Origin: Candidatus Zixiibacteriota bacterium
GTDB taxonomy: Bacteria; Zixibacteria; MSB-5A5; GN15; FEB-12
Length of the DNA: 49,756 nucleotides
NCBI GenBank assembly: GCA_034439475.1
Contig: JAWXAN010000023.1
Coordinates: 1 to 49,756, forward strand
Direction of reading: 5' to 3'
Position 1 is the first letter of the stretch; each line of letters starts with the position of its first letter. The notes beneath the pieces are model-generated. The model made no database searches and was not told the DNA's origin. It saw only the letters and a list, made by a program, of their open reading frames with translations. The translations under genes were made by a program, and so were the position numbers. This document shows, in pieces, positions 18,357 to 37,454 of this stretch.

Positions 18357-18554
18357 TTCTTCTCTATTCCTCCCTTAAGGGATTTAAAGTAGCCTTTATT
18401 TCTAACAAACTGGACGAAAGTAACATAGGAGATTTATCAAGGTCAACAATAAAAACAGGATATTTTTATCGCCTTTGCTTCAAAGGCTTTTAACAATGCA
18501 TTCCGATTTGGAATTACCTCTAAATCCACACTGATTTTGTATAATTTGGCTTCT

Positions 18555-20602: not shown

Positions 20603-20614
20603 GACATGTCCCGA

Positions 20615-21052
20615 CTAACGCCGTTGATTCTGTGCGCGCTTCTTTTCCTGATGAGTGGTAACAAGTCCGATCGCTTCAATGCCCATTTCCTTCATCTGGC
20701 CGATAACGTCAATCGCGACACCGTAAGCAACCGCAGAATCGCCGCGCAAATAGACCTCGTGCGTGTTTTTACGTTTTAGCTCATCGTTCAGGTTTTTTTC
20801 AAAGTCGGGCATAGTCGTCCACTTGTCATTTATATAGATGCCGCCTTTGGAGTCGATGGTGAGAACGACACCTTGAGCTTCTTCTTCGGTTACCGCCGCG
20901 CGGGTTTTCGGAAGGTTTATTTCAATTCCCGACTGTAGCAACGGCGCGGAGATCATGAAGATGATAAGCAGAACAAGAACAACATCGACAAGATTTGCGA
21001 TGTTTATCTCGGCATTGGCATGGTATGCCCGGTGGCGCGGACGACGAATCAT
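20615..21052 (-). CDS. tolR: TolR/ExbD-family proton channel subunit
   Basis: 145 residues with a single membrane segment (about 20-42). The essential aspartate Asp23 sits in NLVDVVLVLLI. The periplasmic domain contains INLPKTRA, VVLTIDSKGGIYIND and a final DVIGQMKEMGIEAIGLVT, typical of the TolR/ExbD fold. With TolQ it forms the proton-driven motor of the Tol system. Its start overlaps the tolQ stop (ATGA), and tolA follows after 12 bases. Confidence 0.93.
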   Translation of the reverse strand: MIRRPRHRAYHANAEINIANLVDVVLVLLIIFMISAPLLQSGIEINLPKTRAAVTEEEAQGVVLTIDSKGGIYINDKWTTMPDFEKNLNDELKRKNTHEVYLRGDSAVAYGVAIDVIGQMKEMGIEAIGLVTTHQEKKRAQNQRR

Positions 21053-21738
21053 CGCTCTTCCTTTCGAGCGCGAGCGATGAATTCAAGAATGAAGCTGAAG
21101 GATCGGTCATTGATGCCCTTCATCTTATTATTCGCCCAGTTATAGGCAATAACGGCGGGAATAGCCGCGCCCAATCCAACAATAGTAGCAAGCAGGGCCT
21201 CGGCAATACCGGGGGCGACAATTGCAAGCGAGGCCGAGCCTCGTTCGCCTATTGACCAAAAGGCGTCCATGATACCGACAACTGTTCCGAGCAGTCCCAT
21301 AAACGGGGCCGCGCTTGCTGTGGTGGCAAGAAATACCACGCTTCGCTCCATTTTGACCGTTTCATCGGTCGATATTCTTTCCATGGTCATTTCAATAATT
21401 TCGAAATCATGACCGCTTAACTGTATACGGTTTTGTTGCAGACCCGGCGCCTGGGTGTTCATGCTTCGAAGTTCATTCAGTTCTCCGAAACCCGCGAGAA
21501 AGATAGACGAAAGCGGGGAATGATTAGTTGTCTTGGCCGCGCCGACGATATCATTCAGTGAGCGTGAGCGACGAAATTGTTGGAGAAATTTTTCAGTGTC
21601 ATTAAAGATTCCGGAGAACTCCCGCCATTTATTGAAAATAACCGTCCATGAGATTAAGGACATAATGACAAGTATGATTAAAATGAAGAGTCCAAAGGTA
21701 GAAGTATCGTTGATAATCTGCCAGATTGATGTATTCAT
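21049..21738 (-). CDS. tolQ: TolQ/ExbB-family motor subunit
   Basis: 229 residues with three membrane segments: about 14-36, 135-157 and 177-200. Family hallmarks are LATTASAAPFMGLLGTVVG in the second, and GIAEALLATIVGLGAAIPA in the third, where the TolQ proton path Thr residues lie. The cytoplasmic loop between segments one and two has the usual charged helices. It is the first gene of the tol operon; a promoter candidate lies about 75 bases upstream of the start. Confidence 0.93.
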   Translation of the reverse strand: MNTSIWQIINDTSTFGLFILIILVIMSLISWTVIFNKWREFSGIFNDTEKFLQQFRRSRSLNDIVGAAKTTNHSPLSSIFLAGFGELNELRSMNTQAPGLQQNRIQLSGHDFEIIEMTMERISTDETVKMERSVVFLATTASAAPFMGLLGTVVGIMDAFWSIGERGSASLAIVAPGIAEALLATIVGLGAAIPAVIAYNWANNKMKGINDRSFSFILEFIARARKEER

Positions 21739-21955: not shown

Positions 21956-22195
21956 ATGAATAGAAAATACCCTCCCATTATAATTCTGATTTTGATTGGT
22001 TGTTTCAATTCCGGTTGTGATGTCGGTTCAAAGAAAGATACGAAAGAAGGGTCGACTGGCGCCGGGCATCCGGAGGAACTCAAAGACAGCACGCGGCTTG
22101 ATCCGGCCGATGAAAGCGCACAACAAAAAAATGCGGCCGAGTCGGACGGAACTGAAGGTACGCCTGTGGAGACAGTTTATATCGGAGGGGATTAA
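21956..22195 (+). CDS. Small lipoprotein of unknown function
   Basis: 79 residues from the ATG at 21956, which gives a clean lipoprotein signal MNRKYPPIIILILIGC and a lipobox FNSGC (Cys21). The mature part is about 58 residues, highly charged and low in complexity (Lys, Asp, Glu, Gly, Ser), and ends VETVYIGGD. It is probably unfolded and anchored in the membrane. It is divergent from tolQ, and its stop overlaps the end of the converging gene by four bases. No family was recognised. Confidence 0.6.
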   Translation: MNRKYPPIIILILIGCFNSGCDVGSKKDTKEGSTGAGHPEELKDSTRLDPADESAQQKNAAESDGTEGTPVETVYIGGD

Positions 22196-23331
22196 CTCTC
22201 GATCATTTCGACATTGGCGCGCGGAACAACAGCTTTACCGCCACCATCGAATTCAACTTCGAGTACTCGAGCCATTGATTCTGATTCAAGTTTTCTCAGC
22301 GGAGAGGGAAGATCAATGACTTTTCCAAGCCGACCGAAATGGGGATGGCGGATAACACGTACCGGCGAACCGATTGTAATACCTTCAAGCGTTGCAACCT
22401 TGGCGGATTTCAAGTCGACATTGCCTGTCTCCGGAATAACGACTTCGGGACGAATAACTCCGGCGCGAATTTGGGTGGCACCGTTTATTGAAGCGGTTTG
22501 ACCTTCGAGTCTTTTCAGAAGATCAAAGGTCCTTTGGGCCATATTAATCTGGCCAAATCCTTCGGTGACCACAAGGGTGGTGGACATGTCTTCGTTGCCG
22601 GTGATAGCCACACCTATATCATACCCGAGGAAATCTCGAAGGTCTTTGTCGTCGAAGCCACCGACAACTATTCCCTTAACGCCCATGGCAATGGCCTTTT
22701 TGAGCGCGCCCGCAGTGACGAGCGATCCTCCCACAAGTATCTTTCCTTTATGGTCGGCGGTAATTAAGTCTTCGGAAAGAACAATGCTGTTGGACGAGGC
22801 GGCCATGTGAATTGCTCCATGCGTTTCACCTCCGATGCCAAAAATTCCCTGAACAAACGATGCCACACAAGTTATCACGACACCTTCGCGCGGAAAAACT
22901 TCGGTAACTTCCCCGCGAACATAGGCTTTGACCTCAACCGGGGTCGGCTCACCGCGTTGAAGGACTTGACCGGTAACGTGAGAAATTGATTCGATTGTGC
23001 CATTGATTGTGGCCGCGCATGAACCAGACATGAATTTTAAGAAGGCCAGATTGAATGGCGGCTTGGTAGCGGCGATGACTTCTTTTTCGCTAATCCGGTC
23101 GCGCTCTTTTTTGAGCATGACATGTTCGATGTCTTCCGGCGGAATGCCAAGACTATTGGCCACATTTATAGGGACGACGTTTCCGGGGAGCAGGGTACGG
23201 GCGACAACAACATCCTCGGTCACCCTGTCACCGACTTTAACGAGCACATCACCTTTAAGCGGAAGGATTCTGTGCTTCTGAACCAAGAGCTTGTCGGTGA
23301 CCTTGAGCCCGGGGGTGTATGAGTGAGCCAT
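22192..23331 (-). CDS. Uncharacterised protein with RnfC-like barrel-sandwich and KOW-like parts
   Basis: 379 residues, soluble, no signal peptide. The N-terminal 60 residues (LPLKGDVLVKVGDRVTEDVVVA) look like a biotinyl/lipoyl-type barrel-sandwich fold as in RnfC. The middle (ATINGTIESISHVTGQVLQRG, then VFPREGVVITCVAS and GIGGETHGAIHMAA) repeats that theme. A segment IVVGGFDDKDLRDFLG, then GVAITGNEDMSTTLVVTEGFG, may be alpha/beta. The C-terminus (TIGSPVRVIRHPHFGRLGKVI) resembles a KOW motif. It is the last of three minus-strand genes with the GlmL-like ATPase at their head. It may be an adaptor of that ATPase; the function is unknown. Confidence 0.65.
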   Translation of the reverse strand: MAHSYTPGLKVTDKLLVQKHRILPLKGDVLVKVGDRVTEDVVVARTLLPGNVVPINVANSLGIPPEDIEHVMLKKERDRISEKEVIAATKPPFNLAFLKFMSGSCAATINGTIESISHVTGQVLQRGEPTPVEVKAYVRGEVTEVFPREGVVITCVASFVQGIFGIGGETHGAIHMAASSNSIVLSEDLITADHKGKILVGGSLVTAGALKKAIAMGVKGIVVGGFDDKDLRDFLGYDIGVAITGNEDMSTTLVVTEGFGQINMAQRTFDLLKRLEGQTASINGATQIRAGVIRPEVVIPETGNVDLKSAKVATLEGITIGSPVRVIRHPHFGRLGKVIDLPSPLRKLESESMARVLEVEFDGGGKAVVPRANVEMIES

Positions 23332-23375: not shown

Positions 23376-24119
23376 TCAGCTCGTCCGTCTTCGTTTTTTA
23401 AAAATAACGAGCAATGCGCCAAGCACAATGACAATCGGAACCCAAAACAGCCACATCGGGCTTTTCTTCGATTTGACGTCGACATTGCCAATTTTGACAG
23501 TTTCTTTTGGTGTGGCGGATTCCACATTTTCAGACGAAAACGACGCAACGATATTTTTAAATGTGGGAGCGAGCGTTGAAAAAATCGAATCCGAGGCATA
23601 GAAGTAAAAGTTTGCGATCCCGCGTTCATAGAATTTGAGTACAAGCAGATTCTTTTTGAGGACTGAGCCTTGGTCGGTGATGTCTGTAACATCGGTTAGG
23701 ATAGACACAGTCTGCGTGGACTGGTCATACACGGGCGCGTTCGAGCGCAGATCGGTCATGTAATTGCCGACAGGTGCGTATTTAACTTTATCACCGAAGT
23801 TGTCATTTAATTCGCCAAGGACAGAGTCAATCCGCTGCTGGCTCATCATGCCGATAGTATCGAGCGTGACAATCAGGTACTCGCGTTCAAAGAACGGTCC
23901 GAGTGTGTCAGGAGCAAACACCGCTTCGTAGTTGAAGGCTTGCTGGCTTGACTGTCCCTGCGACAGGAAGTAGTCAACTGTTCTGTAATCTACCTGCTGC
24001 CAGTTGTCAGGATAGTTGAAATAGAATTTTCCATTAAAGGAGACGAATGGTTTTTCTGCCAAAACATCGACAGATAAAATTATTGTCAGTCCGAAGACTA
24101 ACGCCAAAAGTCGATTCAC
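23376..24119 (-). CDS. Signal-anchored protein with C-terminal membrane tail, unknown function
   Basis: 247 residues. Signal peptide 1-21 (ending VLA before EKPF), an extracytoplasmic domain of about 185 residues beginning FVSFNGKFYFNYPDNWQQVDY, then a linker and a single membrane segment (about 223-240) followed by KKRRRTS, which places the C-terminus in the cytoplasm. The start resembles PsbP/Mog1-like stress or photosystem-assembly domains, which open with a similar YPxxWQ motif, but this is only a visual likeness. It sits between the GlmL-like ATPase gene and the barrel-sandwich-like gene, 44 bases from the latter. Confidence 0.6.
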   Translation of the reverse strand: MNRLLALVFGLTIILSVDVLAEKPFVSFNGKFYFNYPDNWQQVDYRTVDYFLSQGQSSQQAFNYEAVFAPDTLGPFFEREYLIVTLDTIGMMSQQRIDSVLGELNDNFGDKVKYAPVGNYMTDLRSNAPVYDQSTQTVSILTDVTDITDQGSVLKKNLLVLKFYERGIANFYFYASDSIFSTLAPTFKNIVASFSSENVESATPKETVKIGNVDVKSKKSPMWLFWVPIVIVLGALLVIFKKRRRTS

Positions 24120-24176
24120 GAAACTCCTCCGGATTCTGTAATAGATTTATCAGTGCTCGTTCGATGTGACATACAT

Positions 24177-26024
24177 TCAGGCCTTCTCCGGATAAATATC
24201 GAGCTCGGTATTCCATTTCCGAAGGTTTGAAACGCGTTCGTCGGCGCTTATCGATGAGAGGTCAAAGGGCCGGCCGCGTCCGTCGAGAATGATGCCCACA
24301 ACGCCGCCATGAATATCTTTATCGAGCCGCTTTCCTTTGCCTGCGCCGACATCGTAACCGGCTTCAGGTTCAAAGCTGGCCTTCGCCATTTGAGGCAGGC
24401 CGTTGTCCTGCATGCCGAGTTTAATCAGTTTCATCTCAAGATGATTAAGTGTTCCCGTGACCGTTCCTCCGGGAAGCTCAATTGTATATTTCATAACCGG
24501 TCCGGGCTTTTTTGATGTTCCGGTAGGGGCGATGCATGTTCCCAAATGGATCAGACAATCTTTTTCAAAAACCTCTGTCGCCGCTTTGGGTTGAACTTCG
24601 GTCAGAACGCCAAGCTGGGGCATCATAAAAATCGAGTCGACTGCAAGCCGTGTGACGCCTTCAGGCGAGAAGGCATCGATCATCATAAGAGCCGACTGTT
24701 GACGGCGCGGCGCATGGGAGAGGACTCCGCCGGAGCCTATAAGCATATCCAGTTTCATCATATTGACAATGGATGCGCCCGAGGCAGACTGTTCGAAGGC
24801 GTCGGCGATAGTCCGCTGCTGCTGAACGCCCTTTAGCTCGGAGGCGAAGCTTCGATGCTGAATAAATGCCAGGCGAAGGGCCTCTTTTGCGATAGCCTGC
24901 TCGAAAACGAGTTCTTCCATTGATTGAGGGATAGTGGTCGGGCGGATCATTTTATTTTTCACACGATTGCGGAGATCGCGCTCGTCCATTTTGAAAGGAA
25001 CCCAGCGCATAACCATCGGCAGTGTGGCTTCGGCGAAGACATTTGAGATTGAATACGACATGCCAAGGTTGGCCGATACGGTGCGGTTGAAGACCGGCGT
25101 GCTGCCGTCGGGACGAAAGACGGAAAAAACATCGGTCGTAGCTCCGCCGATATCAACTCCCACGGCAGTGATGTTAAATTGATTTGCAATAGTTTGGATG
25201 ATAAGACCGACAGCTCCGGGGGTGGGCATAATTGGGGCATCGGCCCAGGACATGAGCTTTTTGTAGCCGGGCGCCTGCGCCATGACATGCTCCATGAATA
25301 GTTCATGGATTTCTTCGCGGGCCGGACCAAGATTTTCGCGTTCGAGCACCGGTCTGAGATTGTCCACCACACGCAGGTCAACTTTGTCTGCCAGCGTGTC
25401 TTTAACAGAGTTGGCGGCATCTTTGTTACCGGCGTAAATAATCGGGAGTTTGTAACTCGATCCAAGTCGGGGGCGGGGGTCGGCGGCGGCAACAAGTTCG
25501 GCGATTTCGACCACATGGGTTGTGGTTCCGCCATCGATACCTCCGGAGAGTAGAATCATATCCGGACGAAGCCGGCGAATGCGTTCGATTTGCTGGTGCG
25601 GAAGTCTTTTGTCATTTGATGAAATAACGTCCATGACAATGGCCCCGGCACCAAGTGCTGCGCGTTCGGCTGACTCGGCGGTCATGGAGCGCACGACACC
25701 GGCCACCATCATTTGTAGTCCGCCTCCAGCCGAGGAGGTGGAGATAAAGACATCGGTTCCGACTTTACCGTTTGCCGGTGAAATGAAGTGTCCCTGTTCA
25801 TCGAGCAACTTGCGACCGGATAGCTCTTCGAGTTCGCCGACCGCATTAAGTACGCCCATTGTCACATCCTCGAATGGGGCTTCGACTGTGGTCGGGGCTT
25901 CGCCTCGGGACATTAGCCGGTATTCGCCATTATGGAATTCGATTAAGATCGCTTTGGTTGTTGTCGAGCCACAGTCTGTGGCTACAATGACTTTTATATC
26001 GTTTGGGTTGGAAAACTTTGCCAT
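24177..26024 (-). CDS. GlmL/MutL-family ASKHA ATPase
   Basis: 615 residues. The actin-like ATPase fold is shown by phosphate-1 motif ATDCGSTTTKAI (15-26) and phosphate-2 motif VGVDIGGATTDVFSVF. Between them are STSSAGGGLQMMVAGVV and ILLSGGIDGGTTTHVVE, typical of the glutamate mutase L (GlmL) family. Members near adenosylcobalamin glutamate mutase are thought to repair or reactivate it, as MeaB-like or diol dehydratase reactivases do. No mutase subunit (MutE, MutS) is in this window, so that role is not supported here. The gene is divergent from the 12-gene membrane operon. It may be an ATPase partner of that system. Confidence 0.8.
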   Translation of the reverse strand: MAKFSNPNDIKVIVATDCGSTTTKAILIEFHNGEYRLMSRGEAPTTVEAPFEDVTMGVLNAVGELEELSGRKLLDEQGHFISPANGKVGTDVFISTSSAGGGLQMMVAGVVRSMTAESAERAALGAGAIVMDVISSNDKRLPHQQIERIRRLRPDMILLSGGIDGGTTTHVVEIAELVAAADPRPRLGSSYKLPIIYAGNKDAANSVKDTLADKVDLRVVDNLRPVLERENLGPAREEIHELFMEHVMAQAPGYKKLMSWADAPIMPTPGAVGLIIQTIANQFNITAVGVDIGGATTDVFSVFRPDGSTPVFNRTVSANLGMSYSISNVFAEATLPMVMRWVPFKMDERDLRNRVKNKMIRPTTIPQSMEELVFEQAIAKEALRLAFIQHRSFASELKGVQQQRTIADAFEQSASGASIVNMMKLDMLIGSGGVLSHAPRRQQSALMMIDAFSPEGVTRLAVDSIFMMPQLGVLTEVQPKAATEVFEKDCLIHLGTCIAPTGTSKKPGPVMKYTIELPGGTVTGTLNHLEMKLIKLGMQDNGLPQMAKASFEPEAGYDVGAGKGKRLDKDIHGGVVGIILDGRGRPFDLSSISADERVSNLRKWNTELDIYPEKA

Positions 26025-26442: not shown

Positions 26443-27738
26443 GTGAGCATCAACCGCCGGACATCACAGAACCCATCCAGTCAGACAATTCTCTTCCGCA
26501 TTTTATCATTTATTATAAGTATAGCGGTCGTGTGTTGTTTCCCGAGCTTGGGGACGACGAATGCTTTTGCGCAGGACTCCGCTCAATTTAGCGATACAGC
26601 AATGGTATCACCAGGCGATGTCTCGATCATGCCCTATCTGCGCCCGGCTCTTGGGATGACATTCCGCGACAATCCCAACGATGGCGGCGGAGCGCTCGAA
26701 ATATCTTGGATAGTTTCTCCTGATGACACGATCGGTTCAGCGGTGACTGGATACGAGGTCTTTCGCGCGACCTCACCCACAGGCGAGTTTACAAAGTTAG
26801 GCGAGGCTGTGCGTGGTGCGACATCGATTGTAGACAACCAAACAGTAGACGGTATAGAGTATTACTATCGAATCGATTGCATTGCTGCGACAATCGACGA
26901 TCAGGGAAAGCAGACAGTGCATGCGACTCCGGCCGCGGTTATCGGTCCCGCGGCGTCATCGGCTCAATGGTTTAACAAAAATCGGACCATAGCGCTGGTT
27001 CTCATTCTCTTAGTAAGCGGGGCGATACTCTACTTCATTCAAAAAGCCAAATCAGGCGCGCCCATTTATGTGCGCAAGATTGCCGGTATTGATGCAGTCG
27101 AGGAAGCAATCGGACGAGCGACCGAGATGGGGAAGAAGGTCTTTTTTGTGCCCGGCATTCAGGATATGAATGATGTTCAGACAATCGCCGGAATTGCGAT
27201 TCTTGGCCGTGTGGCGCAGGTGGCGGCCGAGTGTGAAACATGGCTTGAAGTGCCAGTTTCGAAATCGCTAGTTATGGTCACTGCCCGTGAAACAATGAAA
27301 GAAGCTTATTCACGAGCGGGACGTCCCGACTCATTCAAAGAAGCGCAGGTTCATTTTATCACAGACGAACAGTTTGCCTATGCCGCCGCTGTCGATGGGA
27401 TGATAGTGCGGGAAAAGCCTGCGGCAATTTTTTATATGGGCGCATTTTTTGCCGAATCGCTCATTTTATCCGAAACTGGAAATGCTTCTGGCGCAATTCA
27501 GATTGCCGGTACCGGCGAGCCGACCCAACTGCCGTTCTTTGTTGCGGCATGCGATTACACTCTTTTGGGCGAGGAGCTTTTTGCGGCATCGGCCTATCTC
27601 TCGAGAGAACCGCGCCAGCTTGGGTCATTAAAAGGGCAGGATATGGGCAAGATCCTTTTTCTCACGGCGATTATAGTTGGGATAATTCTGGCAACGTTTT
27701 TTAATTACAACATAAGTTATATTTTTCGGGTGCAGTGA
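26443..27738 (+). CDS. Cassette 1 subunit A: FN3 + DUF6754-like membrane protein
   Basis: 431 residues, GTG start with AGAGGAAAG before it. Signal or anchor segment about 16-43 (ending AFAQ), an extracytoplasmic fibronectin type III-like domain about 80-165 (LEISWIVSPDD, GYEVFRATSPTGEF, YYYRIDCIA), a membrane segment 181-200, then a cytoplasmic-side domain of about 200 residues, and a last membrane segment about 405-425. The domain opens with the motif IYVRKIAGIDAVEEAIG then RATEMGK, shared with both other A copies, and includes FYMGAFFAESLIL and FFVAACDYTLLGEELFAASAYLS. I regard it as DUF6754-like. Function unknown. First gene of a 12-gene operon. Confidence 0.75.
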   Translation: MSINRRTSQNPSSQTILFRILSFIISIAVVCCFPSLGTTNAFAQDSAQFSDTAMVSPGDVSIMPYLRPALGMTFRDNPNDGGGALEISWIVSPDDTIGSAVTGYEVFRATSPTGEFTKLGEAVRGATSIVDNQTVDGIEYYYRIDCIAATIDDQGKQTVHATPAAVIGPAASSAQWFNKNRTIALVLILLVSGAILYFIQKAKSGAPIYVRKIAGIDAVEEAIGRATEMGKKVFFVPGIQDMNDVQTIAGIAILGRVAQVAAECETWLEVPVSKSLVMVTARETMKEAYSRAGRPDSFKEAQVHFITDEQFAYAAAVDGMIVREKPAAIFYMGAFFAESLILSETGNASGAIQIAGTGEPTQLPFFVAACDYTLLGEELFAASAYLSREPRQLGSLKGQDMGKILFLTAIIVGIILATFFNYNISYIFRVQ

Positions 27739-27810
27739 AACTACTATGATAAATCGAATTGAAAAGCCCTCATCCGCCAGTCGGTTTTCACATGGCGAAG
27801 GAGTTTCGCA

Positions 27811-28485
27811 GTGAAACGCGAAGTCCCTCTTATCATAACGACCGTCGCAGGGTTGGTTTTTGCCATCAGCTATTTTATCCCAGTCTTCCCATTTGGCGAA
27901 GCCGAGACTATTTTTGGGGATTGGGTCTCAATTGTACAGGCCTTCGCGGTGTGGCTGGGAGTGCTCAATCTAATTCGTGTCAGTATCGTAAAAATAGACA
28001 GGAAAGAGCATGACTGGATCTACAGTTCGGTAATTATCATCTGCCTGTTTGCGACAATTGCAGTAGGCATGATAAGCGGCTATCGAGGCATGAATGCCGA
28101 TCCGGTGTATTCATTCAGAGATCCTGGAACGGCCTTTGATTGGATATTCACGAGCATTTTTACACCGCTCGGCGCGACGATGTTTGCGATACTTGCATTT
28201 TATGTCGCATCAGCGGCCTACCGCGCTTTTCGCGCCAGAAATCGCGAAGCAACGCTCCTGCTTATCGCCGCTTTTTTTGTAATGGGCGGACGGGTGCCGC
28301 TCTTTGATATGATGACTTCATCTTTTAGTGATACCCCGATATTCAGTCATTTTGCCGGGTGGATTATGTCATATCCGGTGACAGCAGGTCAGCGCGCCAT
28401 AGCGATTGGTATCGCGCTTGGGATTGTCTCAAGTTCGCTTCGGGTTATTCTCGGCGTTGAGCGTTCGCATGTGGGAGGGGCTTAA
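27811..28485 (+). CDS. Cassette 1 subunit B: six-helix membrane protein
   Basis: 224 residues, GTG start with AAGGAG 8-13 bases before it. About six membrane segments: residues 5-24, 38-58, 71-91, 112-135, 141-160 and 188-210. Diagnostic of the B family in all three cassettes are AYRAFRARN (an arginine-rich cytoplasmic loop), LLIAAF and the C-terminal QRAIAIGIALGIV with LRVILGVERSH. No catalytic, transport or heme motif was recognised. It is separated from subunit A by 72 bases and from subunit C by 2. It is most likely a core membrane subunit of an undescribed complex. Confidence 0.7.
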   Translation: MKREVPLIITTVAGLVFAISYFIPVFPFGEAETIFGDWVSIVQAFAVWLGVLNLIRVSIVKIDRKEHDWIYSSVIIICLFATIAVGMISGYRGMNADPVYSFRDPGTAFDWIFTSIFTPLGATMFAILAFYVASAAYRAFRARNREATLLLIAAFFVMGGRVPLFDMMTSSFSDTPIFSHFAGWIMSYPVTAGQRAIAIGIALGIVSSSLRVILGVERSHVGGA

Positions 28486-28487
28486 GC

Positions 28488-29387
28488 ATGCTTGAATATC
28501 TCGCATACGGTCTGAATATCCTTGTCGGTTTGTCTCTCATCTATGTATTCTTTAGAACGGTTAAAGGCCGTCCGATAGGCCGACGGATCGTTTTTCTGTA
28601 TATAGCAATCGCGGTAATTTCCCCGCTCTTTATGAACTTGGTCGCGCCTCTGCCTGATACCGACGAAGTCCAGAAACTTTATCGTTCGATTCAAACACTG
28701 TCGCCGGGCTCGAAAGTTCTCTGCTCGTTTGACTACGATCCGCAGTCGGCTCCTGAGCTACAACCGATGGCGGTTGCATTTTTGAAGTATGCCTTTAAGC
28801 ATGATTTTAAAATCATTATCATGGGACTCTGGCCGGCCGGTCCACAGCAGGCAAATCAGGCCATTGCAGTTGCACTCGCGGACACTGAGATAGCGGCAAA
28901 AAACCTACAATACGGGACTGATTATGTGAATCTGGGCTTTCAGTCCGGGAATGAATTTGTAATCCAGTCGATGGGTAACAATTTCAAGCAGATGTTTCCA
29001 TCTGATGACCGTCGCACACCGTATGATCAAATCCCAATTTTGCAGAATGTAGTCAATTTCAGCAATATCGATTTTGTTATGGACTTCTCGTCTGGAAAGC
29101 CCGGGAGTAAAGAGTGGGTTCAAATCGCAGTCGATCGGTTCGGCGCAAAGGTTGGGGCTGGAAATACTGCGGTACAGGCGCCAGAGATGTATCCCTATCT
29201 GCGCGCTGGGCAGCTTCAGGGTCTCATGGGCGGCATGACTGGCGCGGCGGAGTTTGAGAAGACTTTGAAAGAACCGGGTAAAGCCAGCACATTTTTGCTC
29301 TCGCAGATGTTTGGCCATGCAACTGTCATTATGCTTATCATAATTGGAAATGTGGCCTATTTCACCACTCGAAGGAAATCAGTATGA
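28488..29387 (+). CDS. Cassette 1 subunit C: membrane-anchored extracytoplasmic domain
   Basis: 299 residues. Two N-terminal membrane segments (about 7-23 and 34-52) with a basic loop VKGRPIGRR, so both ends of this hairpin should be outside. A domain of about 220 residues then follows, and a C-terminal membrane segment (278-294) with a basic tail. The domain begins SFDYDPQSAPELQPMA, matched in all copies by a [F/I]D[Y/F]DP...E..PM pattern, then FKQMFPSDD, SSGKPGSKEW and LMGGMTGAAEFE. The alternating beta/alpha pattern suggests a Rossmann-like fold. Not recognised as a known enzyme. Confidence 0.7.
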   Translation: MLEYLAYGLNILVGLSLIYVFFRTVKGRPIGRRIVFLYIAIAVISPLFMNLVAPLPDTDEVQKLYRSIQTLSPGSKVLCSFDYDPQSAPELQPMAVAFLKYAFKHDFKIIIMGLWPAGPQQANQAIAVALADTEIAAKNLQYGTDYVNLGFQSGNEFVIQSMGNNFKQMFPSDDRRTPYDQIPILQNVVNFSNIDFVMDFSSGKPGSKEWVQIAVDRFGAKVGAGNTAVQAPEMYPYLRAGQLQGLMGGMTGAAEFEKTLKEPGKASTFLLSQMFGHATVIMLIIIGNVAYFTTRRKSV

Positions 29388-29448
29388 TTGTGAATGTTTT
29401 TTGTGCCGGTGTGAAAACTAATGTGCCAACAGAAGGCGGCAAAAGACG

Positions 29449-30102
29449 ATGAGTACAGATTTCGGTGTTTGGGTCGCCGCGTTGTTGACTATCGGCATAC
29501 TCTCTTTTCTATATAAAGACAATCCGTTCTATAAGCTGTGCGAGTCAATATTTATCGGCGTCTCTGCCGGGTACTGGGCAATTCTCTATTATTTCGACAA
29601 CCTCTATAAGAAGATGTATGAAGGAATCGTCCCGAAGGGAGACGCAGAACCAAATTACTGGCTCATCGGGGGAGCCGTGCTTGGTATAATGATGCTCTTC
29701 CGCCTCAGTTCCAAAGCCGGATGGATTGCGCGCTGGCCGCTGGCGTTTATTGTCGGCGCGACAGCCGGGCTGTATATGATGATTTACTTTGTGTCTAATG
29801 CGCTCAATCAGGTTGCTTCAACAATTATGCCTGTAATCACACGAGACCCAAGTTCTCTGTCAATCCTGTGGGTTGAAACAATCGGGACGCTGGTAATAGC
29901 CATCGGAGTGATAACGGGACTTATTTATTTTTTCTTTTCCAAAGAGCACCGGGGAGCCTTCGGTGGCGCAGCCAGAATCGGTATTTATTTTCTGATGGTC
30001 ACATTTGGAGCATCGTTTGGTTACACCGTGATGAGCCGTATGTCTCTGCTTATTGGCCGCATGGATTTTCTGTTTGGCAACTGGCTGGGGTTGATTAACT
30101 AG
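29449..30102 (+). CDS. Cassette 1 subunit D: six-helix membrane protein
   Basis: 217 residues. About six membrane segments: residues 5-20, 33-48, 69-86, 95-115, 142-163 and 175-195. Family hallmarks shared by all three D copies are SFLYKDNPFYK just after the first segment, ARWPLAFIVG, GLIYFFFSKEH and GASFGYTVMSRMSLL near the end. The DNPFYK loop and the repeated GASFGYTVM helix imply a conserved functional core, but no known transporter or enzyme family is recognised. Its stop overlaps the next GTG start by one base (TAGTG), joining cassette 1 to cassette 2. Confidence 0.7.
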   Translation: MSTDFGVWVAALLTIGILSFLYKDNPFYKLCESIFIGVSAGYWAILYYFDNLYKKMYEGIVPKGDAEPNYWLIGGAVLGIMMLFRLSSKAGWIARWPLAFIVGATAGLYMMIYFVSNALNQVASTIMPVITRDPSSLSILWVETIGTLVIAIGVITGLIYFFFSKEHRGAFGGAARIGIYFLMVTFGASFGYTVMSRMSLLIGRMDFLFGNWLGLIN

Positions 30103-31391
30103 TGCCTGAGCAGATGAGACAGCCGGGGGGCCGGTATGTTACATCTCGTTTCCTTTTGTGTGCCCTGTTCTCTCTTTTTCTTCTCGTCATTCTTATTTCT
30201 GAGTCGGCGTTTGCCCAAATTGTACCTGAACATTCGACTATGCCGGCCAGACCTGTCGAGGACTCGATTGCATTTTCGACACGAATCGCGTCAGTCACTT
30301 CGCTCATTGCCGTAGATCACCAATATGATGACGGCGAAGCTATTGATCTGACCTGGGTGCCATCGCTTGACGATCAACTTGTCAACAGCCGGGTGCTCGG
30401 CTACGTAGTCTATAAATCTGTCGATTCCGGCGTGCCGTCAAAAATCGCAGAACTTCTACCTCGAGCAAATTCATTCAGAGATGAAACAGTAACACTGGGC
30501 CATATTTACACTTACTCGATTACAACCCGTGCAGAGAACTCTACTTCTACTTCCATTTCGACTGCCCCGATATCGCCTGAACGGGAGTGGATAAACTTTG
30601 ATTTGACCTGGCTTTTTGTCATGGCGGTGGTAATTGGTGGAGCGATTGTTTTATTTATTGAGACAGCGCGGCGAGGCAAAAAACTGTTTGTCCGTAAAAT
30701 TGCCGGACTTGAGGCTATCGACAATGCCATCGGCCGTGCCACCGAGATGGGACGTCCCATTCTGTACATTCCGGGAATCGAAGATATGAACGAAGTCGAG
30801 ACTATTGCTTCGGTGACAATTCTTGGACGAGTCGCGCGAATAGTTGCCGACTATGATACCAAGCTGAATGTTCCGGTCTCGCGCTCTCTTGTTATGACCG
30901 CCGCCCGGGAAACGATTAAAGCCGCTTATGTCGAGGCCGGTCGGCAGGACGCTTATAATGATGATATGGTGCGTTACATCACCGATGAGCAGTTCGGTTA
31001 TGTGGCAGCAGTCGACGGCATCATGGTTCGCGAAAAACCGGCGACCGTGTTTTTGCTTGGCGCGTTTTTTGGAGAGTCTCTCATTTTGGCTGAGATGGGA
31101 AACCAAGTCGGAGCTATTCAAATTGCCGGAACAGCGCGTCCTCCGCAAATCCCATTCTTCGTTGCGGCCTGCGATTATACATTAATAGGCGAAGAGCTAT
31201 TTGCGGCGTCGGCGTATCTCAGTGGTGAACCAAAACAACTTGGTTCTCTTAAAGGACAGGATATAGGCAAAGGAATCGCCATGGCGGCAATTTTTATTGG
31301 CGCACTTGCCGCAACAATAGCCGCAATATCGGGCAATTCGACCATCGATGCCTTTCATGCCTATATTTCTAACATTTTTAGCGGGAACTGA
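30102..31391 (+). CDS. Cassette 2 subunit A: FN3-like + DUF6754-like membrane protein
   Basis: 429 residues, GTG start overlapping the previous stop; an ATG at 30114 is possible. Signal segment to about 44 (SAFAQ), an extracytoplasmic FN3-like domain (about 75-150: IDLTWVPSLDD, GYVVYKSVDSG), membrane segment about 165-185, then the A-type cytoplasmic domain with FVRKIAGLEAIDNAIG then RATEMGRP, ILYIPGIEDMNEVE, FLLGAFFGESLILAE and FFVAACDYTLIGEELFAASAYLS, and a final membrane segment (about 392-412). It is clearly homologous to the A genes at 26443 and 33830 and closest to the first. The conserved stretches are on the cytoplasmic side; the FN3 half diverges more. Confidence 0.75.
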   Translation: MPEQMRQPGGRYVTSRFLLCALFSLFLLVILISESAFAQIVPEHSTMPARPVEDSIAFSTRIASVTSLIAVDHQYDDGEAIDLTWVPSLDDQLVNSRVLGYVVYKSVDSGVPSKIAELLPRANSFRDETVTLGHIYTYSITTRAENSTSTSISTAPISPEREWINFDLTWLFVMAVVIGGAIVLFIETARRGKKLFVRKIAGLEAIDNAIGRATEMGRPILYIPGIEDMNEVETIASVTILGRVARIVADYDTKLNVPVSRSLVMTAARETIKAAYVEAGRQDAYNDDMVRYITDEQFGYVAAVDGIMVREKPATVFLLGAFFGESLILAEMGNQVGAIQIAGTARPPQIPFFVAACDYTLIGEELFAASAYLSGEPKQLGSLKGQDIGKGIAMAAIFIGALAATIAAISGNSTIDAFHAYISNIFSGN

Positions 31392-31396
31392 GATAG

Positions 31397-32068
31397 ATGA
31401 AACGCCAGATCCCTCTCATAATTACGTTTTTGGTCGGCACACTGCTCATCTTTTCCATTTTCATTCCGCCCCTTGAAACGCTGGGCGAGGACTTCACTGT
31501 CTTTTTTAACATCATTGCCGTTTTTGCATACATCCTCGGCGGAGGTAATCTGCTCCGCGTCCATTTATCCAAAGTTCAGGCGAAACGGACCGACTGGCAG
31601 TATTCGATCGTGACGCTGGTCGGCTTTACGGTGATGCTTGCGGTCGGGCTATTCAAGCTTGGCAATCCGGGCGGAATCGAAGCCAGTCCCACCGAACCCG
31701 GTTCGTTATTTCAGACTTTGTACGAAAATATCTTCTCGCCACTTGGCTCAACGATGTATGCACTGCTTGCGTTTTTTATAGCATCGGCAAGCTACCGTGC
31801 CTTCCGGGCTAAAAACCGCGAGGCGACAATTTTGCTAATTGCCGCTTTTATCATTTTACTTGGGCGAACCGCGCTCGGGACGATGCTCACTGCCTGGATT
31901 CCAGAACAGTTCTCGCTCTTTCAGATCCCGAATCTGGCTTTGTGGATAATGAACTCGCCTAATCTTGCCGGACAGCGCGCGATTCTCATTGGCATTGGAT
32001 TGGGAGTGGTGGCTATGTCACTTCGCGTTATTCTGGGCATTGAGCGCTCACACTTGGGGAAGAACTGA
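31397..32068 (+). CDS. Cassette 2 subunit B: six-helix membrane protein
   Basis: 223 residues, ATG 5 bases after the A2 stop, with GATAGATG context. Membrane segments about 5-22, 36-53, 70-86, 112-132, 141-158 and 189-209. The B-family marks are present: SYRAFRAKNREATILLIAAF-type loop and helix, and QRAILIGIGLGVV with LRVILGIERSH. Compared with B1 it retains the same length and topology. The stop codon overlaps the next start (TGATG), so translation of B2 and C2 is coupled. Function unknown, as for the other two copies. Confidence 0.7.
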   Translation: MKRQIPLIITFLVGTLLIFSIFIPPLETLGEDFTVFFNIIAVFAYILGGGNLLRVHLSKVQAKRTDWQYSIVTLVGFTVMLAVGLFKLGNPGGIEASPTEPGSLFQTLYENIFSPLGSTMYALLAFFIASASYRAFRAKNREATILLIAAFIILLGRTALGTMLTAWIPEQFSLFQIPNLALWIMNSPNLAGQRAILIGIGLGVVAMSLRVILGIERSHLGKN

Positions 32069-33015
32069 TGGGTGAGCCGATTGTTGTCGCAGATTCGGGC
32101 ATGGGAAATTTCGGTGTGATTATTTCCATTCTTCTGCTTGCGGGCGGACTGATCTGGCTGGCCTGGCGCTCAATCAGCGGACGCGAGGTCGACCGGCGGG
32201 TCATTTATCTCTTTGTTGCGCTGGCCGTCACTGCGCCAATTTTGTTCCCGATTACGTTTCCTGAAAAGACCACGCAGGTTGTGCAGAATCTCTTTGATAA
32301 GATTGAGACTTTGCCGAGCGGTTCATTCATACTGCTTTCGTTCGATTTTGATCCGGCCCTTGCGCCCGAAGTCCAACCGATGGCCGATGCCATAACGCGG
32401 CATTGTCTTGCAAAAAATCACAAAATTGTTTTCATGTCTCTTTGGGCGACAGGTCAGGCGCAGATGAATCAAACCCTTCGACGGGTGGTCAATCAGGAGT
32501 TTCCTGATAAACTGGAGCGGATAGACTATGTCAATGTTGGCTATAAAGCTGGCAACGAAGGTGTGCTGAGAGTAATAGCGACCGACTTTCCGAAAATGTT
32601 TCCATCCGATGTCAATAATGTCCCATACCCGGAAATCCCGATGCTTGGGAATATCCGTTCATGCTCGGATTTCGATTTGCTGGTAATGTTCGGAGGGGGT
32701 AAACCGGGACCGATGGAATGGGTGCTTTTTGTTGGTGATCCGACCGGCGTGCCATTGGGAGCATGTGTGGCCGCCGTCTCCGCGCCGCAACTATATTCGT
32801 ATTACCCCAAACAGATGATTGGTATTTTAGGAGGAATCAAAGGGGCAGCGGAATACGAATCTGAGCTGGCGCGTGTTCATGACCGTTTCAAAACCACGCC
32901 GGCGCCGGGTTTGAAAATGATGGGACCACAGACGCTTGTTCACGTCGTGATAATGGCCTTTATCGTGCTTGGCAATGTCGTCTATTTCCGCGGCAGAAGA
33001 CGGAGCGCGGCATGA
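32068..33015 (+). CDS. Cassette 2 subunit C: membrane-anchored extracytoplasmic domain
   Basis: 315 residues. Two N-terminal membrane segments (about 11-30 and 44-62) flank a basic loop (RSISGREVDRR). The extracytoplasmic domain has SFDFDPALAPEVQPMAD, PKMFPSDVNNVPYPEIPML, FGGGKPGPMEWVL and GILGGIKGAAEYE. A C-terminal membrane segment (about 290-306) is followed by RGRRRSAA. It is the longest of the three C proteins. The same fixed motifs as C1 and C3 indicate a retained ligand or partner surface. Stop and the next start overlap by four bases (ATGA). Confidence 0.72.
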   Translation: MGEPIVVADSGMGNFGVIISILLLAGGLIWLAWRSISGREVDRRVIYLFVALAVTAPILFPITFPEKTTQVVQNLFDKIETLPSGSFILLSFDFDPALAPEVQPMADAITRHCLAKNHKIVFMSLWATGQAQMNQTLRRVVNQEFPDKLERIDYVNVGYKAGNEGVLRVIATDFPKMFPSDVNNVPYPEIPMLGNIRSCSDFDLLVMFGGGKPGPMEWVLFVGDPTGVPLGACVAAVSAPQLYSYYPKQMIGILGGIKGAAEYESELARVHDRFKTTPAPGLKMMGPQTLVHVVIMAFIVLGNVVYFRGRRRSAA

Positions 33016-33812
33016 AACGAGCAGGGCTCATAATAACTGCAATTGCCGCCGCCCTATTTCTGGCGAGTTGGTTCATAAAAGGGATGACTATTGAGGGAGA
33101 GAATCCGGTCTCACAGGGGTTTTGGGTAACACTGTCGGCATTTCTGACTCTATGCATTTTCTCGTTTTTATACAAAGACAATCCATTTTATAAATTTGCC
33201 GAACATCTTTTTGTCGGAGTCTCGGCGGCCTATTGGATGACGATGGGCTTCTGGACGACTTTTGTGCCCAATCTTTTCCCAAGAATTTCCGAAGGGCTGT
33301 CATCGGCCTTTAAAGTCGCCTATGCTGGCTTTGATCCATTTTATCTAATTCCCGTTGTGTTGGGTATTTTGCTCTTGATGCGGCTTTCGTCGTCACATGG
33401 CTGGCTTGCGCGCTGGCCGCTGGCTTTTATTGTGGGGACAACCTCAGGGCTATATTTTACCGCAGCGCTCAGATCAAATTTCATGGAGCAGATATCGTCG
33501 ACATTTCTGCCTCTGGTGACCGATTGGCAGGGCTTTGGGGCGTTCTTTTCTAACTTTTCACTTTCTGCTACTGGCCAATTCGCGGCCATGCTTGCCAATT
33601 GGGTAATTTTTACTGGTGTGATATGCGGCCTTATCTATTTCTTTTTTTCTCGCGAACATTCTGGTTTATTTGGCCGGGCATCCCGTTTTGGCATCTGGAT
33701 ACTCATGATTACGTTTGGGGCGTCGTTCGGATACACCGTCATGGGGCGCATTTCTTTGTTGGTTGGGCGCATAAGCTTTTTGTTGCGCGACTGGCTAAAT
33801 GCTATTAATTAG
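33012..33812 (+). CDS. Cassette 2 subunit D: membrane protein with extra N-terminal helix
   Basis: 266 residues, about 45 longer than D1. The extra N-terminal part (LIITAIAAALFLASWFI) adds a membrane segment ahead of the D core, so about seven are predicted. The core keeps FSFLYKDNPFYKFAEHL, VGVSAAYWMT, ARWPLAFIVG, GLIYFFFSREH and GASFGYTVMGRISLL. An odd total would put the N-terminus on the other side from D1. Starts within the C2 stop (ATGA) and is followed 17 bases later by A3. No transport or enzymatic family is recognised. Confidence 0.7.
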   Translation: MKRAGLIITAIAAALFLASWFIKGMTIEGENPVSQGFWVTLSAFLTLCIFSFLYKDNPFYKFAEHLFVGVSAAYWMTMGFWTTFVPNLFPRISEGLSSAFKVAYAGFDPFYLIPVVLGILLLMRLSSSHGWLARWPLAFIVGTTSGLYFTAALRSNFMEQISSTFLPLVTDWQGFGAFFSNFSLSATGQFAAMLANWVIFTGVICGLIYFFFSREHSGLFGRASRFGIWILMITFGASFGYTVMGRISLLVGRISFLLRDWLNAIN

Positions 33813-33829
33813 CGGAGTACGAGTTTAGT

Positions 33830-35143
33830 ATGAAAATAAAACAGGCCCGCACTCTCATAGCTTTTGTTCTTTCCGCAGTTGCGGTCATGCTCCTATTCCA
33901 TTCCTCGATATATTGTCAGAACGAACAATCTGCAGGCGGAGATACTTCTTCTGCCCAAGCGGTTCCGCTCGATACGACAACACAATCTGTTCTCTTGAAT
34001 ATTTCCGCCCCGGCTCCAGTAACAGAAGTTTGGGCTTTCGACACCGATAATGATCATGGCCACTCAGTTTCAGTTGAATGGAAATTGTCGGCAAATGACG
34101 GCGGAGCGAAGGGCACAGTTGTCGCTTATGAATTATTCCGCGCTCTCTTTCCGGATGGCCCGTTTGTGCGCGTGGGCATAGCTCCTTCGGGATCGACATC
34201 GCTTGTTGATGTGGGTGGCCGCGATGAGGGGACGAAGGATTATCTGCCGGACAACACTTCTCTCTATTATAGAGTGGATGCCGTGACTGTCGATAGTCTG
34301 GTCCGGACTCCGTCTGAAATTGCGGGGCCAGTAGAAAGTTCGGGACAATGGTTTAACACCGGCCGAACGGTAGTTTTTGCAGCGGTTTTTATTTTCACAG
34401 CCCTCACACTCTTTTTTGTTTCGCGGGCAAAAGCTGGCGCGCAATTGTATATTCGCCCACTTGCCGGAATAGAAGCTGTCGATGAAGCAATTGGCCGCGC
34501 GACCGAGATGGGAAAACCAATCTTATATCTATTGGGCGCAGGTGATGCCTCTGAAATTGCTACTATTGCGTCGTTTACCATTCTTGGGCGAGTCTCCAAA
34601 AAAGTCGCTGAATATCAGACTCCGATAATTATCCCCTGCTATGATCCGGTCGTGATGACAGTCGCGCAGGAGATTGTACGCTCTTCGTATTTGGATGCCG
34701 GTCGTCCTGACTCCTACAATCAAGATTCCGTCTTTTTCGTTACCCAGTCGCAGTTTGCCTACGTTACGGCGGTAAATGGGATTATGATGCGCGAGCGTCC
34801 CGCGACAAATATCTATATGGGTAAATTTTATGCCGAGTCACTTATCTTTGCCGAGACTGGCGCCCTTGCTGGTTCAATTCAAATTGCCGGAACAGACGAA
34901 ATTGCGCAGATACCATTTTTTATTGTGGCCTGCGACTATGCTTTGATTGGCGAGGAGTTGTATGCGGCCTCGGCTTATCTGGGCCGAGAGCCCAAATTGT
35001 TGGGTACACTCAAAGCCCAGGATTATGCAAAAGCCGCGATCATCTTTTTCATTATCATTGGTGTTATTTTCGCAAATTTTGGGGCGGGAAAGCCGGACTC
35101 AAGTTGGAATTCATTCAGAGAATACTTTAAGGTCGTGGACTAA
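33830..35143 (+). CDS. Cassette 3 subunit A: FN3-like + DUF6754-like membrane protein
   Basis: 437 residues. Signal segment to about 26 (ending SIYCQ), an FN3-like extracytoplasmic domain (about 60-160: SVEWKLSANDG, AYELFRALFPDGPF, YYRVDAV), a membrane segment about 180-200, the cytoplasmic domain with YIRPLAGIEAVDEAIG then RATEMGKP, and a C-terminal membrane segment (about 404-422). FYAESLIFAE and FFIVACDYALIGEELYAASAYLG correspond to the other copies. In the first motif this copy has PLAG where A1 and A2 have KIAG, so it is the most diverged of the three. Opens the last cassette. Confidence 0.75.
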   Translation: MKIKQARTLIAFVLSAVAVMLLFHSSIYCQNEQSAGGDTSSAQAVPLDTTTQSVLLNISAPAPVTEVWAFDTDNDHGHSVSVEWKLSANDGGAKGTVVAYELFRALFPDGPFVRVGIAPSGSTSLVDVGGRDEGTKDYLPDNTSLYYRVDAVTVDSLVRTPSEIAGPVESSGQWFNTGRTVVFAAVFIFTALTLFFVSRAKAGAQLYIRPLAGIEAVDEAIGRATEMGKPILYLLGAGDASEIATIASFTILGRVSKKVAEYQTPIIIPCYDPVVMTVAQEIVRSSYLDAGRPDSYNQDSVFFVTQSQFAYVTAVNGIMMRERPATNIYMGKFYAESLIFAETGALAGSIQIAGTDEIAQIPFFIVACDYALIGEELYAASAYLGREPKLLGTLKAQDYAKAAIIFFIIIGVIFANFGAGKPDSSWNSFREYFKVVD

Positions 35144-35154
35144 GAGCAAGGGAT

Positions 35155-35793
35155 ATGAGAAGACAACTGCCATTTATATTAGTGACCGCTGTGGGACTTT
35201 TCATGATCCTGCAGTATTTCGTCCCGCATGAGACATCCGAAAGGCTCTATGAATATCTTTTGGACTGGCTGCCTATTATCGGAGTGTTTACCTTGGCAGT
35301 CGGCATCTGGTCACTCATAAAAGTTTCTGCTGACCGTATCCGCACAAAGAAAGCAAACTGGGGATACAACTATGTGACGCTCATTGGCCTTTTCACTATG
35401 ATTCTTTTTGGTTTTACCGATGCCGATTGGAATTTTCATTTCTACACTCCGGAGGGATTGCAGAATCCTTGGTTTATACATTTTTTTACGTACATTATTA
35501 CGCCTATTCAAGCGACGGTGTTTGCGCTTCTGGCATTTTTTATCGCATCGGCATCGTACCGCGCCTTTCGCGCCCGAAATACGTTGGCTTCACTGCTACT
35601 TGTGGCCGCGCTTATACTGATGTTGCGATTTACTCCTGGCATCGGAACAGTATTCGCCGATACGGCCAATTGGCTTATTAATATCCCGAACCTTGCCGCT
35701 CAGCGCGCAATCATTATCGGAGTCGGTTTGGGCATTGTCGCCACCGCGCTCAAAATAATACTCGGCATCGAACGGGGTTATTTAGGGAAGTAA
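35155..35793 (+). CDS. Cassette 3 subunit B: six-helix membrane protein
   Basis: 212 residues, the shortest B copy. About six membrane segments: residues 5-22, 36-55, 70-86, 107-130, 136-153 and 177-198. It has SYRAFRARNTLASLLL where B1 and B2 have NREAT, and QRAIIIGVGLGIV with LKIILGIERGYLG where the others have LRVILG..RSH. It is thus the most diverged B protein, in step with A3. Followed after 13 bases by C3. Confidence 0.7.
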   Translation: MRRQLPFILVTAVGLFMILQYFVPHETSERLYEYLLDWLPIIGVFTLAVGIWSLIKVSADRIRTKKANWGYNYVTLIGLFTMILFGFTDADWNFHFYTPEGLQNPWFIHFFTYIITPIQATVFALLAFFIASASYRAFRARNTLASLLLVAALILMLRFTPGIGTVFADTANWLINIPNLAAQRAIIIGVGLGIVATALKIILGIERGYLGK

Positions 35794-35806
35794 TGGCAGA
35801 GAAGAT

Positions 35807-36679
35807 ATGAATATAATAGAACGCTTTATCGCGCTTGACCGCCGCTGGATATTTCTTGTGCTCTCTCTCGTGTGCGTGATAGCCTATGCCTCGAAATTTG
35901 TGGTTCCAATTTTGGTCACGCCGGAGGTCAAGCGCATTTATGATTTTGTAGATGCCCGTCAAAAAGGGGATCTTCTTTTTATCGCTATTGATTACGACCC
36001 CAACGCGCAGGCAGAACTTCATCCGATGACGTATGCCGTGGTTGAACATGCTCTCCGTCGCGAAGTTAAGTTAATTTTTTCGTCGCTGTCACAGAACGGA
36101 CCGGGTATGACCAGTCAGGCCATTCGCGACATTACCGACTCAATGCGACTTGAGCAGACATATAATGGTGTGACTTATCCCGGTCGTGAAATTGTCAGCG
36201 GTGTCGACTATACCTTTCTCGGCTATAAGCCCTACTTTACGATCATCATACTTGGGATGGGACAAAACTTCAGGATTCCATTTCCTAATGACTATTACGG
36301 TGTGCCGCTTGATTCGCTCCCGATGATGAGTGGCGTGCGCAATTTTGACGATGTCGATGGAGTGATCGATATTGGCGGCGGCAATATTACCGATGCCTGG
36401 ATTTCATACGGCCAAGGACGTTTCGGATTTCCGCTCGCGCTGGGGCTGACTGGTGTGATGGTCATGCAGTACTATCCGTATCTTAACTCTGGTCAGGTAT
36501 TCGGACTGATGGGCGGCCTGCTTGGGGCGGCGCAGTACGAACAACTTGCCGACAATCCGGGCCTGGCCAAGGACGGAATGCGAATACAACTGTTCGCTCA
36601 TTTTGTTATCATTCTTTTTATTATAATTGGCAACATCAGCTACTTTACCAGTCAAAAAAGCAAAGGAAAGGTGAGATAA
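35807..36679 (+). CDS. Cassette 3 subunit C: membrane-anchored domain, one N-terminal helix
   Basis: 290 residues. Only one N-terminal membrane segment (about 13-35) is visible, against two in C1 and C2, because the first helix of those is replaced by the short polar start MNIIERFIALDRR. The extracytoplasmic domain keeps IDYDPNAQAELHPM, IPFPNDYYGVPLDSLPMM, DIGGGNITDAW and FGLMGGLLGAAQYE, and a C-terminal membrane segment (about 264-281). Net topology of the domain should still be outside. Followed by D3, whose TTG start comes 1 base after its stop. Confidence 0.7.
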   Translation: MNIIERFIALDRRWIFLVLSLVCVIAYASKFVVPILVTPEVKRIYDFVDARQKGDLLFIAIDYDPNAQAELHPMTYAVVEHALRREVKLIFSSLSQNGPGMTSQAIRDITDSMRLEQTYNGVTYPGREIVSGVDYTFLGYKPYFTIIILGMGQNFRIPFPNDYYGVPLDSLPMMSGVRNFDDVDGVIDIGGGNITDAWISYGQGRFGFPLALGLTGVMVMQYYPYLNSGQVFGLMGGLLGAAQYEQLADNPGLAKDGMRIQLFAHFVIILFIIIGNISYFTSQKSKGKVR

Positions 36680-36680
36680 C

Positions 36681-37454
36681 TTGGAATTTACAACCTTTCT
36701 TTGGACCACGCTTGCGGCTTTTCTTACACTGGCAATTTTCTCTTTTTTATATAAGGACAACCCGTTTTATAAATTTGCCGAGCACCTTGTTGTCGGTGTT
36801 TCTGCCGGATATTTTGTCATAATCCTCTGGCATAACACACTTGTGCCTAATCTCTTTCAGCGTCTCGCCGCAGGCAACTGGTGGTATCTCATACCACTGA
36901 TTCTTGGACTGATGATGTGGTCGCGCTTCTTTAAGAATGCGTCATGGCTCTCTCGAATTCCACTGGCGCTCTATATCGGAATCGCCGCAGGTCTCGCAGT
37001 ACCGCTTGAGATGTCTAACCGTGTGCTAAAGCAGGTCTATGCGACAATGGTTCCGATTAATTGGGGGAACTTTTTTGGCGATCGCTATCTTGATATTGCG
37101 GCCGGCTACTCTCAGCTTCTGCTCTTCGTTGGGACAATAGCGGGACTTGTATATTTCTTCTTTTCCAAAGCCCACACAGGCGCCATGGGAACTCTTGCGA
37201 GACTTGGATTGTGGATTCTTATGCTCGGCTTTGGAGCGTCGTTCGGCTTCACTGTCATGGCGCGAATATCCCTGCTCATAAATAGAATTCAGTTTATCGA
37301 CAAGAATTGGATCAAAGCCGCATTCAATGAAAGCAACGCAAATTACAGCGTCTGGTTTCAGATCGTGTTCTATACAGTTATTCTTCTCTTGCTGGTGTAT
37401 ATCATCAAAGAAATCATAACGCATATGCGTCTGAAGACTGCCAACGAAGTGTAA
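36681..37454 (+). CDS. Cassette 3 subunit D: membrane protein with extra C-terminal helix
   Basis: 257 residues from a TTG start at 36681, chosen because the resulting MEFTTFLWTTLAAFLTLA aligns with D1's start and AAAGGTGAG lies just upstream. D-family core: FSFLYKDNPFYKFAEHL, VGVSAGYF, SRIPLALYIG, GLVYFFFSKAH and GASFGFTVMARISLL. The last 45 residues add one more membrane segment (VFYTVILLLLVYIIKEI) that D1 and D2 lack. It is the last gene of the 12-gene run; no clear terminator was found in the following 380 bases. Confidence 0.7.
   Translation: MEFTTFLWTTLAAFLTLAIFSFLYKDNPFYKFAEHLVVGVSAGYFVIILWHNTLVPNLFQRLAAGNWWYLIPLILGLMMWSRFFKNASWLSRIPLALYIGIAAGLAVPLEMSNRVLKQVYATMVPINWGNFFGDRYLDIAAGYSQLLLFVGTIAGLVYFFFSKAHTGAMGTLARLGLWILMLGFGASFGFTVMARISLLINRIQFIDKNWIKAAFNESNANYSVWFQIVFYTVILLLLVYIIKEIITHMRLKTANEV

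Follow-up and report, generated by a model that had tools for sequence, protein, structure and literature searches.

What kind of membrane system is encoded by four genes that recur three times in the same order, side by side on one strand? The question is raised by positions 26,443 to 37,454 of contig JAWXAN010000023.1 from a Candidatus Zixiibacteriota bacterium, which lie within the 49,756-nucleotide stretch of DNA analysed here (hereafter, the window). The four families, called A, B, C and D, recur in a constant order across about 16 phyla; single-copy genes for a MutL-like ATPase and for a protein termed n1 track A even where they are unlinked to it; and the three positions of the array are ancient paralogues. 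From these observations we infer complex formation, coupling to ATP and a function in the envelope. The reading favoured here, held tentatively and with slightly less than balanced confidence, is that ABCD is an inner-membrane envelope complex existing in several ancient paralogous versions, which share one cytosolic ATPase and one adaptor.

The repeated cassette and its proteins

The original prediction read this region as A-B-C-D repeated three times. The twelve open reading frames (ORFs) were found on the + strand at the coordinates and lengths it had given. The joints between cassettes, an overlap of 1 base at 30102 and a gap of 17 bases ahead of 33830, were likewise confirmed. They are listed below, with transmembrane abbreviated as TM.

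26443..27738, + strand: A1, 431 residues, FN3 + TM + DUF6754 + TM; PF20539 E 7.9e-120; clade 1 in the tree
27811..28485, + strand: B1, 224 residues, polytopic membrane protein; aligns to B2 at 4.6e-63; no Pfam family above cut-off
28488..29387, + strand: C1, 299 residues, two TM helices + Rossmann-like domain (predicted outside) + TM; AF2 model, pLDDT 96.3
29449..30102, + strand: D1, 217 residues, polytopic membrane protein with motifs YKDNPFYK and GASFGYTVM; aligns to D2 at 5.8e-67; no Pfam family
30102..31391, + strand: A2, 429 residues; PF20539 E 2.5e-121; AF2 model, pLDDT 88.7
31397..32068, + strand: B2, 223 residues; all-against-all BLASTP
32068..33015, + strand: C2, 315 residues; all-against-all BLASTP
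33012..33812, + strand: D2, 266 residues; all-against-all BLASTP
33830..35143, + strand: A3, 437 residues; PF20539 E 1.3e-115
35155..35793, + strand: B3, 212 residues; all-against-all BLASTP
35807..36679, + strand: C3, 290 residues; all-against-all BLASTP
36681..37454, + strand: D3, 257 residues; all-against-all BLASTP

All-against-all BLASTP of the window copies aligned every family across the three cassettes. Pairs of A share 41-51% identity (E 1e-88 to 7e-117, best for A1-A2), pairs of B 40-48% (E 2e-41 to 5e-63), pairs of C 27-38% (E 6e-29 for C2-C3 to 5e-71) and pairs of D 42-49% (E 6e-51 to 6e-67), while the best match between families had an E of 0.037. Since within-family values are 6e-29 or better and between-family values 0.037 or worse, one four-gene cassette is present three times, and the resemblance is not due to chance. 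The four families show no detectable relation to one another. The extent of the array was as predicted, but two further ABCD cassettes in the genome and the divergent partner genes at 22192-26024 had been missed: the window genome holds five cassettes, and the two beyond the array, on contigs C54 (L041) and C31 (L042), are complete.

The earlier labelling of A as FN3 plus DUF6754-like is confirmed by PF20539 (DUF6754), which matches A1 to A3 over the full length of the domain at 385-404 bits (cut-off 27). This one domain has an entry, without an assigned function; none exists for the partners described here (B, C, D and n1). In the A2 model, an N-terminal hydrophobic helix (15-36) precedes the FN3 domain (about 60-160), a TM helix (166-190), a Rossmann-like alpha/beta part (201-374) and a last TM segment (377-410). 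The FN3 domain, of the titin FN3 type by profile and by fold search, is predicted to lie outside, in the periplasm; the alpha/beta DUF6754 domain is provisionally placed in the cytosol because basic residues follow TM 166-190 (positive-inside rule). Searches with the whole A model (Foldseek/VIA) returned the FN3 domain only, which filled the hit list, and a PDB profile search with A likewise gave FN3 matches only. FN3 is no essential part of the family, as the A copy on C54 (299 residues) lacks it and that on C31 (257 residues) consists of DUF6754 alone. Across loci, DUF6754 is 44-61% identical to one reference, and about 20 polar residues of A are invariant or nearly so in the alignment, including R198, R212, E215, Q297, R310, E325, E331, Q340, Q349, C357, D358, E364, E365, D387 and K390. 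One A protein, of 943 residues (L051:9904-12735), carries a long, partly Ig-like N-terminal extension ahead of DUF6754.

For C, the C1 model comprises two TM helices, a Rossmann-like alpha/beta domain (about 59-260) predicted to lie outside, and a last TM helix (265-298) in which H277 and N288 are invariant. Fold searches with C gave generic Rossmann-like matches (best VIA Z 9.5, rmsd 3.5, 140 aligned, 1kjn; Foldseek E 1.6e-3 at best), from which no family was chosen, and its profile matched nothing among PDB sequences at E<1. The idea that A and C share one profile-detectable fold was rejected, as hhalign gave a TM-helix match only. B and D are polytopic. None of B, C and D has a Pfam family above cut-off, and alignments of them yielded scattered weak matches only. 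A B protein of 591 residues with FG-GAP repeats (L102:18729-20501) is an unusual fusion that may add a large extra domain.

Could the cassette simply be a transporter of a known type, such as an ABC or TRAP system, that has diverged past recognition? The polytopic nature of B and D would fit, and one A-B-C-D locus type adjoins ABC transporter genes. However, no transporter family was found above cut-off in A-D, with either the proteins or their alignments, which agrees with the original prediction, and the cassette lacks a P-loop ATPase. This origin is regarded as very improbable. A-D also have no match to MotA_ExbB, ExbD, TonB or TolA, and none to a P-loop ATPase or ABC membrane domain above cut-off. 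A defence system was rejected as well, there being no PADLOC match for A-D, n1 or MutL.

Distribution and history of the cassettes

PF20539 occurs in 132 of the 132 sampled genomes of the window's phylum, mostly in 4-6 copies, and in 66 of 254 genomes outside it; it is absent from all 14 well-known control genomes. A scan of named genomes, in which a 24-sequence alignment served as the query and the best 80 loci were retained, placed A among these 80 in Cloacimonadota, Zixibacteria, WOR-3, Stahlbacteria, Fermentibacteria, Coatesbacteria, Latescibacteria, Riflebacteria, Muiribacteria, Planctomycetota, Calditrichota, Gemmatimonadota, Methylomirabilis, Edwardsbacteria, Acidobacteriota and Myxococcota. 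The A-B-C-D order is widely kept: in 98 other loci from about 16 phyla, 132 of the 139 testable A genes are followed by B, C and D on one strand within 4 kb, an arrangement that chance would not produce. Solitary A genes in L053 and L056 are among those that depart from it. In a Caldithrix record (L109:9341-17100), A, B-C and D are split by inserted genes, unlike nearly all loci.

The history of the array was read from trees of concatenated A, B, C and D (141 rows with FastTree; 51 rows with IQ-TREE under the simple LG+G4 model). Where a triple array is complete, each of its three positions falls in a phylum-wide clade of its own; arrays with a missed or truncated copy were numbered by the copies found, and a few "c2" rows fall in the position-3 clade. 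In the tree, the window stands nearest to Zixibacteria and so very probably belongs to them. The second position lies closer to cassettes that occur singly in Planctomycetota, Gemmatimonadota, Calditrichota, Acidobacteriota and Myxococcota than it does to positions 1 and 3, each of which pairs with a copy in L050. Forcing one Zixibacteria clade costs 554 log-likelihood units, and the approximately unbiased (AU) test rejects a recent tandem duplication or a single within-phylum origin (p-AU 2.6e-100). Together with the positional clades, this rejection means that the paralogues predate the phylum or moved between phyla. The proposed duplication of the whole cassette followed by specialisation thus holds in so far as the cassettes are homologous as wholes, but not as a simple local duplication. 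L068, from a contig labelled Armatimonadetes, falls inside Cloacimonadota in this tree and is probably mislabelled or misbinned.

The fixed order of ancient paralogues suggests that the three cassettes act together; in the window, three specialised modules would be co-produced and would probably co-assemble or serve one pathway. Alternatively, each cassette may work independently of the others, as a complex with a substrate of its own; the tandem would then reflect an old duplication and shared regulation, with no co-assembly. The occurrence of single cassettes in many phyla and elsewhere in the window genome is consistent with such independence, as is the age and distinctness of each positional clade. 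Nevertheless, pure independence would not predict that these three paralogues stay together, in an unchanged order, throughout the phylum, and we consider this explanation rather unlikely.

Partner genes and a possible mechanism

A survey in which all ORFs near ABCD were clustered in the 98 loci and the window revealed four recurrent neighbours: n1 (39 loci), a MutL-like gene (n2, 34 loci), n3 of about 120 residues (19) and n12, a small two-TM protein (8). A frequent gene order is n12-n3-MutL-n1-ABCD. In the window, n1, MutL and a further gene, n9, are divergently transcribed upstream of A1.

22192..23331, - strand: n1, putative barrel-sandwich hybrid (RnfC_N/NqrA/biotinyl-like) + alpha/beta + KOW-like, single copy
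23376..24119, - strand: n9, exported protein with C-terminal TM; in 9 loci, adjoining n1 and MutL
24177..26024, - strand: n2, MutL/GlmL-like ASKHA ATPase, single copy; PF13941 E 2.9e-129

The n9 gene, which has no Pfam match, was seen only in loci resembling the window's phylum (Zixibacteria). Outside that phylum, n1 and MutL accompany A. Among the 254 genomes outside the phylum, 61 have both n1 and A, 5 have A only, none has n1 only and 188 have neither (Fisher p 2e-53); of the 58 genomes with the MutL subfamily, 57 also have A (p 6e-46), related genomes being counted as independent in both tests. In G266, MutL, n1 with A, and C lie far apart in the genome, and in G088 MutL and n1 are far from the cassette array, so the association with A is not due to linkage alone. 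Both partners are almost always single copy, against one to about six copies of ABCD, which suggests that they are shared components. The MutL proteins are 62-87% identical to the window copy, those of n1 49-70%.

What is this MutL? It matches PF13941 (MutL/GlmL, the methylaspartate mutase accessory ASKHA family) over its full length, and its ASKHA nucleotide motifs are invariant (ATDCGSTTTKAI, DIGGATTD and SGGxLSHAP). However, it has a C-terminal extension and falls below all curated GlmL/Or-4 cut-offs (241.7 against 475 for the equivalog NF040745; 178.7 against 204.05 for the subfamily TIGR01319). Its profile found nothing among PDB sequences at E<0.1, and the literature searched on MutL and on planctomycete essentiality held nothing usable. 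A role as glutamate mutase accessory was rejected: the mutase E subunit (PF06368) gave no match over cut-off in 12 genomes, the window's own included.

The N-terminal part of n1 may resemble the barrel-sandwich hybrid domain of RnfC and NqrA. PF13375 (RnfC_N) matches 14 of 29 members weakly (best E 7e-7), NQRA_N matches 6, and biotinyl-type matches occur too; the window protein itself has no such weak Pfam match. These likenesses bear on a second alternative, an ion pump-like membrane enzyme that converts energy or depends on a cofactor. In it, n1 would be an RnfC/NqrA-like peripheral subunit, and MutL would reactivate a catalytic domain in A. The kinship of MutL with GlmL accessory proteins, the invariant polar residues of A (C357, D358, E364 and E365 among them) and the invariant H277 and N288 of C would all suit such an enzyme. 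However, n1 has no invariant Cys and no Fe-S or flavin-domain family at E 0.1, and the lack of a mutase E subunit above cut-off in the 12 genomes speaks against it too; the enzyme is judged unlikely. A-D match no other Rnf/Nqr subunit family.

The KOW-like part of n1 raises a third alternative, namely a factor that inserts membrane proteins in connection with the ribosome or SRP, the KOW domain of n1 touching the ribosome. A KOW match in 4 of the 29 members, a weak match to SPT5 KOW (E 0.72) and an FtsY-like gene, as read from its sequence, beside n1-A in one locus are its grounds. Since the KOW match is weak, the FtsY adjacency was seen in one locus and multiple paralogous ABCD modules would be unusual for an insertase, this role appears very improbable. 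In that locus (L056:10906-13152), n1 and A adjoin the FtsY-like gene and the genome's sole C copy lies elsewhere.

In the favoured inner-membrane complex, B and D would form the membrane core. A would span the membrane with FN3 outside and its polar-residue-dense alpha/beta domain inside, and C would expose its Rossmann-like domain outside. By analogy with the barrel-sandwich domain of RnfC/NqrA, n1 may dock from the cytosol on the membrane part, and the ASKHA ATPase may drive or reset the complex, ATP hydrolysis being coupled to envelope work in which a component of the envelope would be transported or assembled. More speculatively still, ABCD could represent a new class of ATP-powered inner-membrane machine found in many bacterial phyla, built from paralogous modules of the four families (a three-module assembly in Zixibacteria). 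A barrel-sandwich/KOW adaptor would connect it to the ATPase that drives it, which would be of the ASKHA and not the P-loop type. A single ASKHA-driven ABCD machine would be a new way to power a membrane complex.

Several points weigh against the favoured complex. At the thresholds used, 9 A-positive genomes have no MutL match and 5 no n1 match (assembly gaps or divergence), and n1 or MutL was found in 44 loci, over half of the loci showing neither within the available stretch. The sidedness of the membrane proteins is derived from the positive-inside rule, and envelope genes nearby may reflect inherited synteny and not function.

Genomic neighbourhood and significance

Such envelope genes are found next to n1 in the window.

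17841..21738, - strand: Pal/TolB/TolA-TonB/TolR/TolQ cluster; Pfam matches for TolQ, TolR, TolA/TonB and TolB

The OmpA/Pal-like gene of this cluster (17841-18356) was called by reading its sequence. A TolQ/ExbB homologue lies near ABCD in 16 loci, and Tol/TonB-ExbBD genes adjoin the system in Zixibacteria, Fermentibacteria and WOR-3/Stahlbacteria, as neighbours and not as members. Pilin/O-antigen ligase/Wzz-type (polysaccharide-type) genes occur nearby in Riflebacteria and Methylomirabilis, and plsX/fabH-like genes follow D in Planctomycetota, names beyond Pfam matches being assigned from sequence. These neighbours favour, circumstantially, a role in the envelope. The original suggestion of an undescribed envelope system agrees with them and with the predicted topology; DUF6754 (PF20539) is named in no paper in the literature searched, and the other three cassette families have no Pfam entry.

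The presence of the six-gene set in about 16 phyla and in all 132 sampled genomes of one of them likely reflects a basic task, to which the high identity of the MutL partner between loci of different phyla probably also points. Cultivable relatives with a single cassette copy make ABCD accessible to study.

Between the array and a pyruvate phosphate dikinase-like gene (38327-41131) lies a gene (37825-38181) for a 118-residue basic, repeat-like protein (EARREYQRRYYQMHKEKAKEYQR), which is conserved in eight loci including the window.

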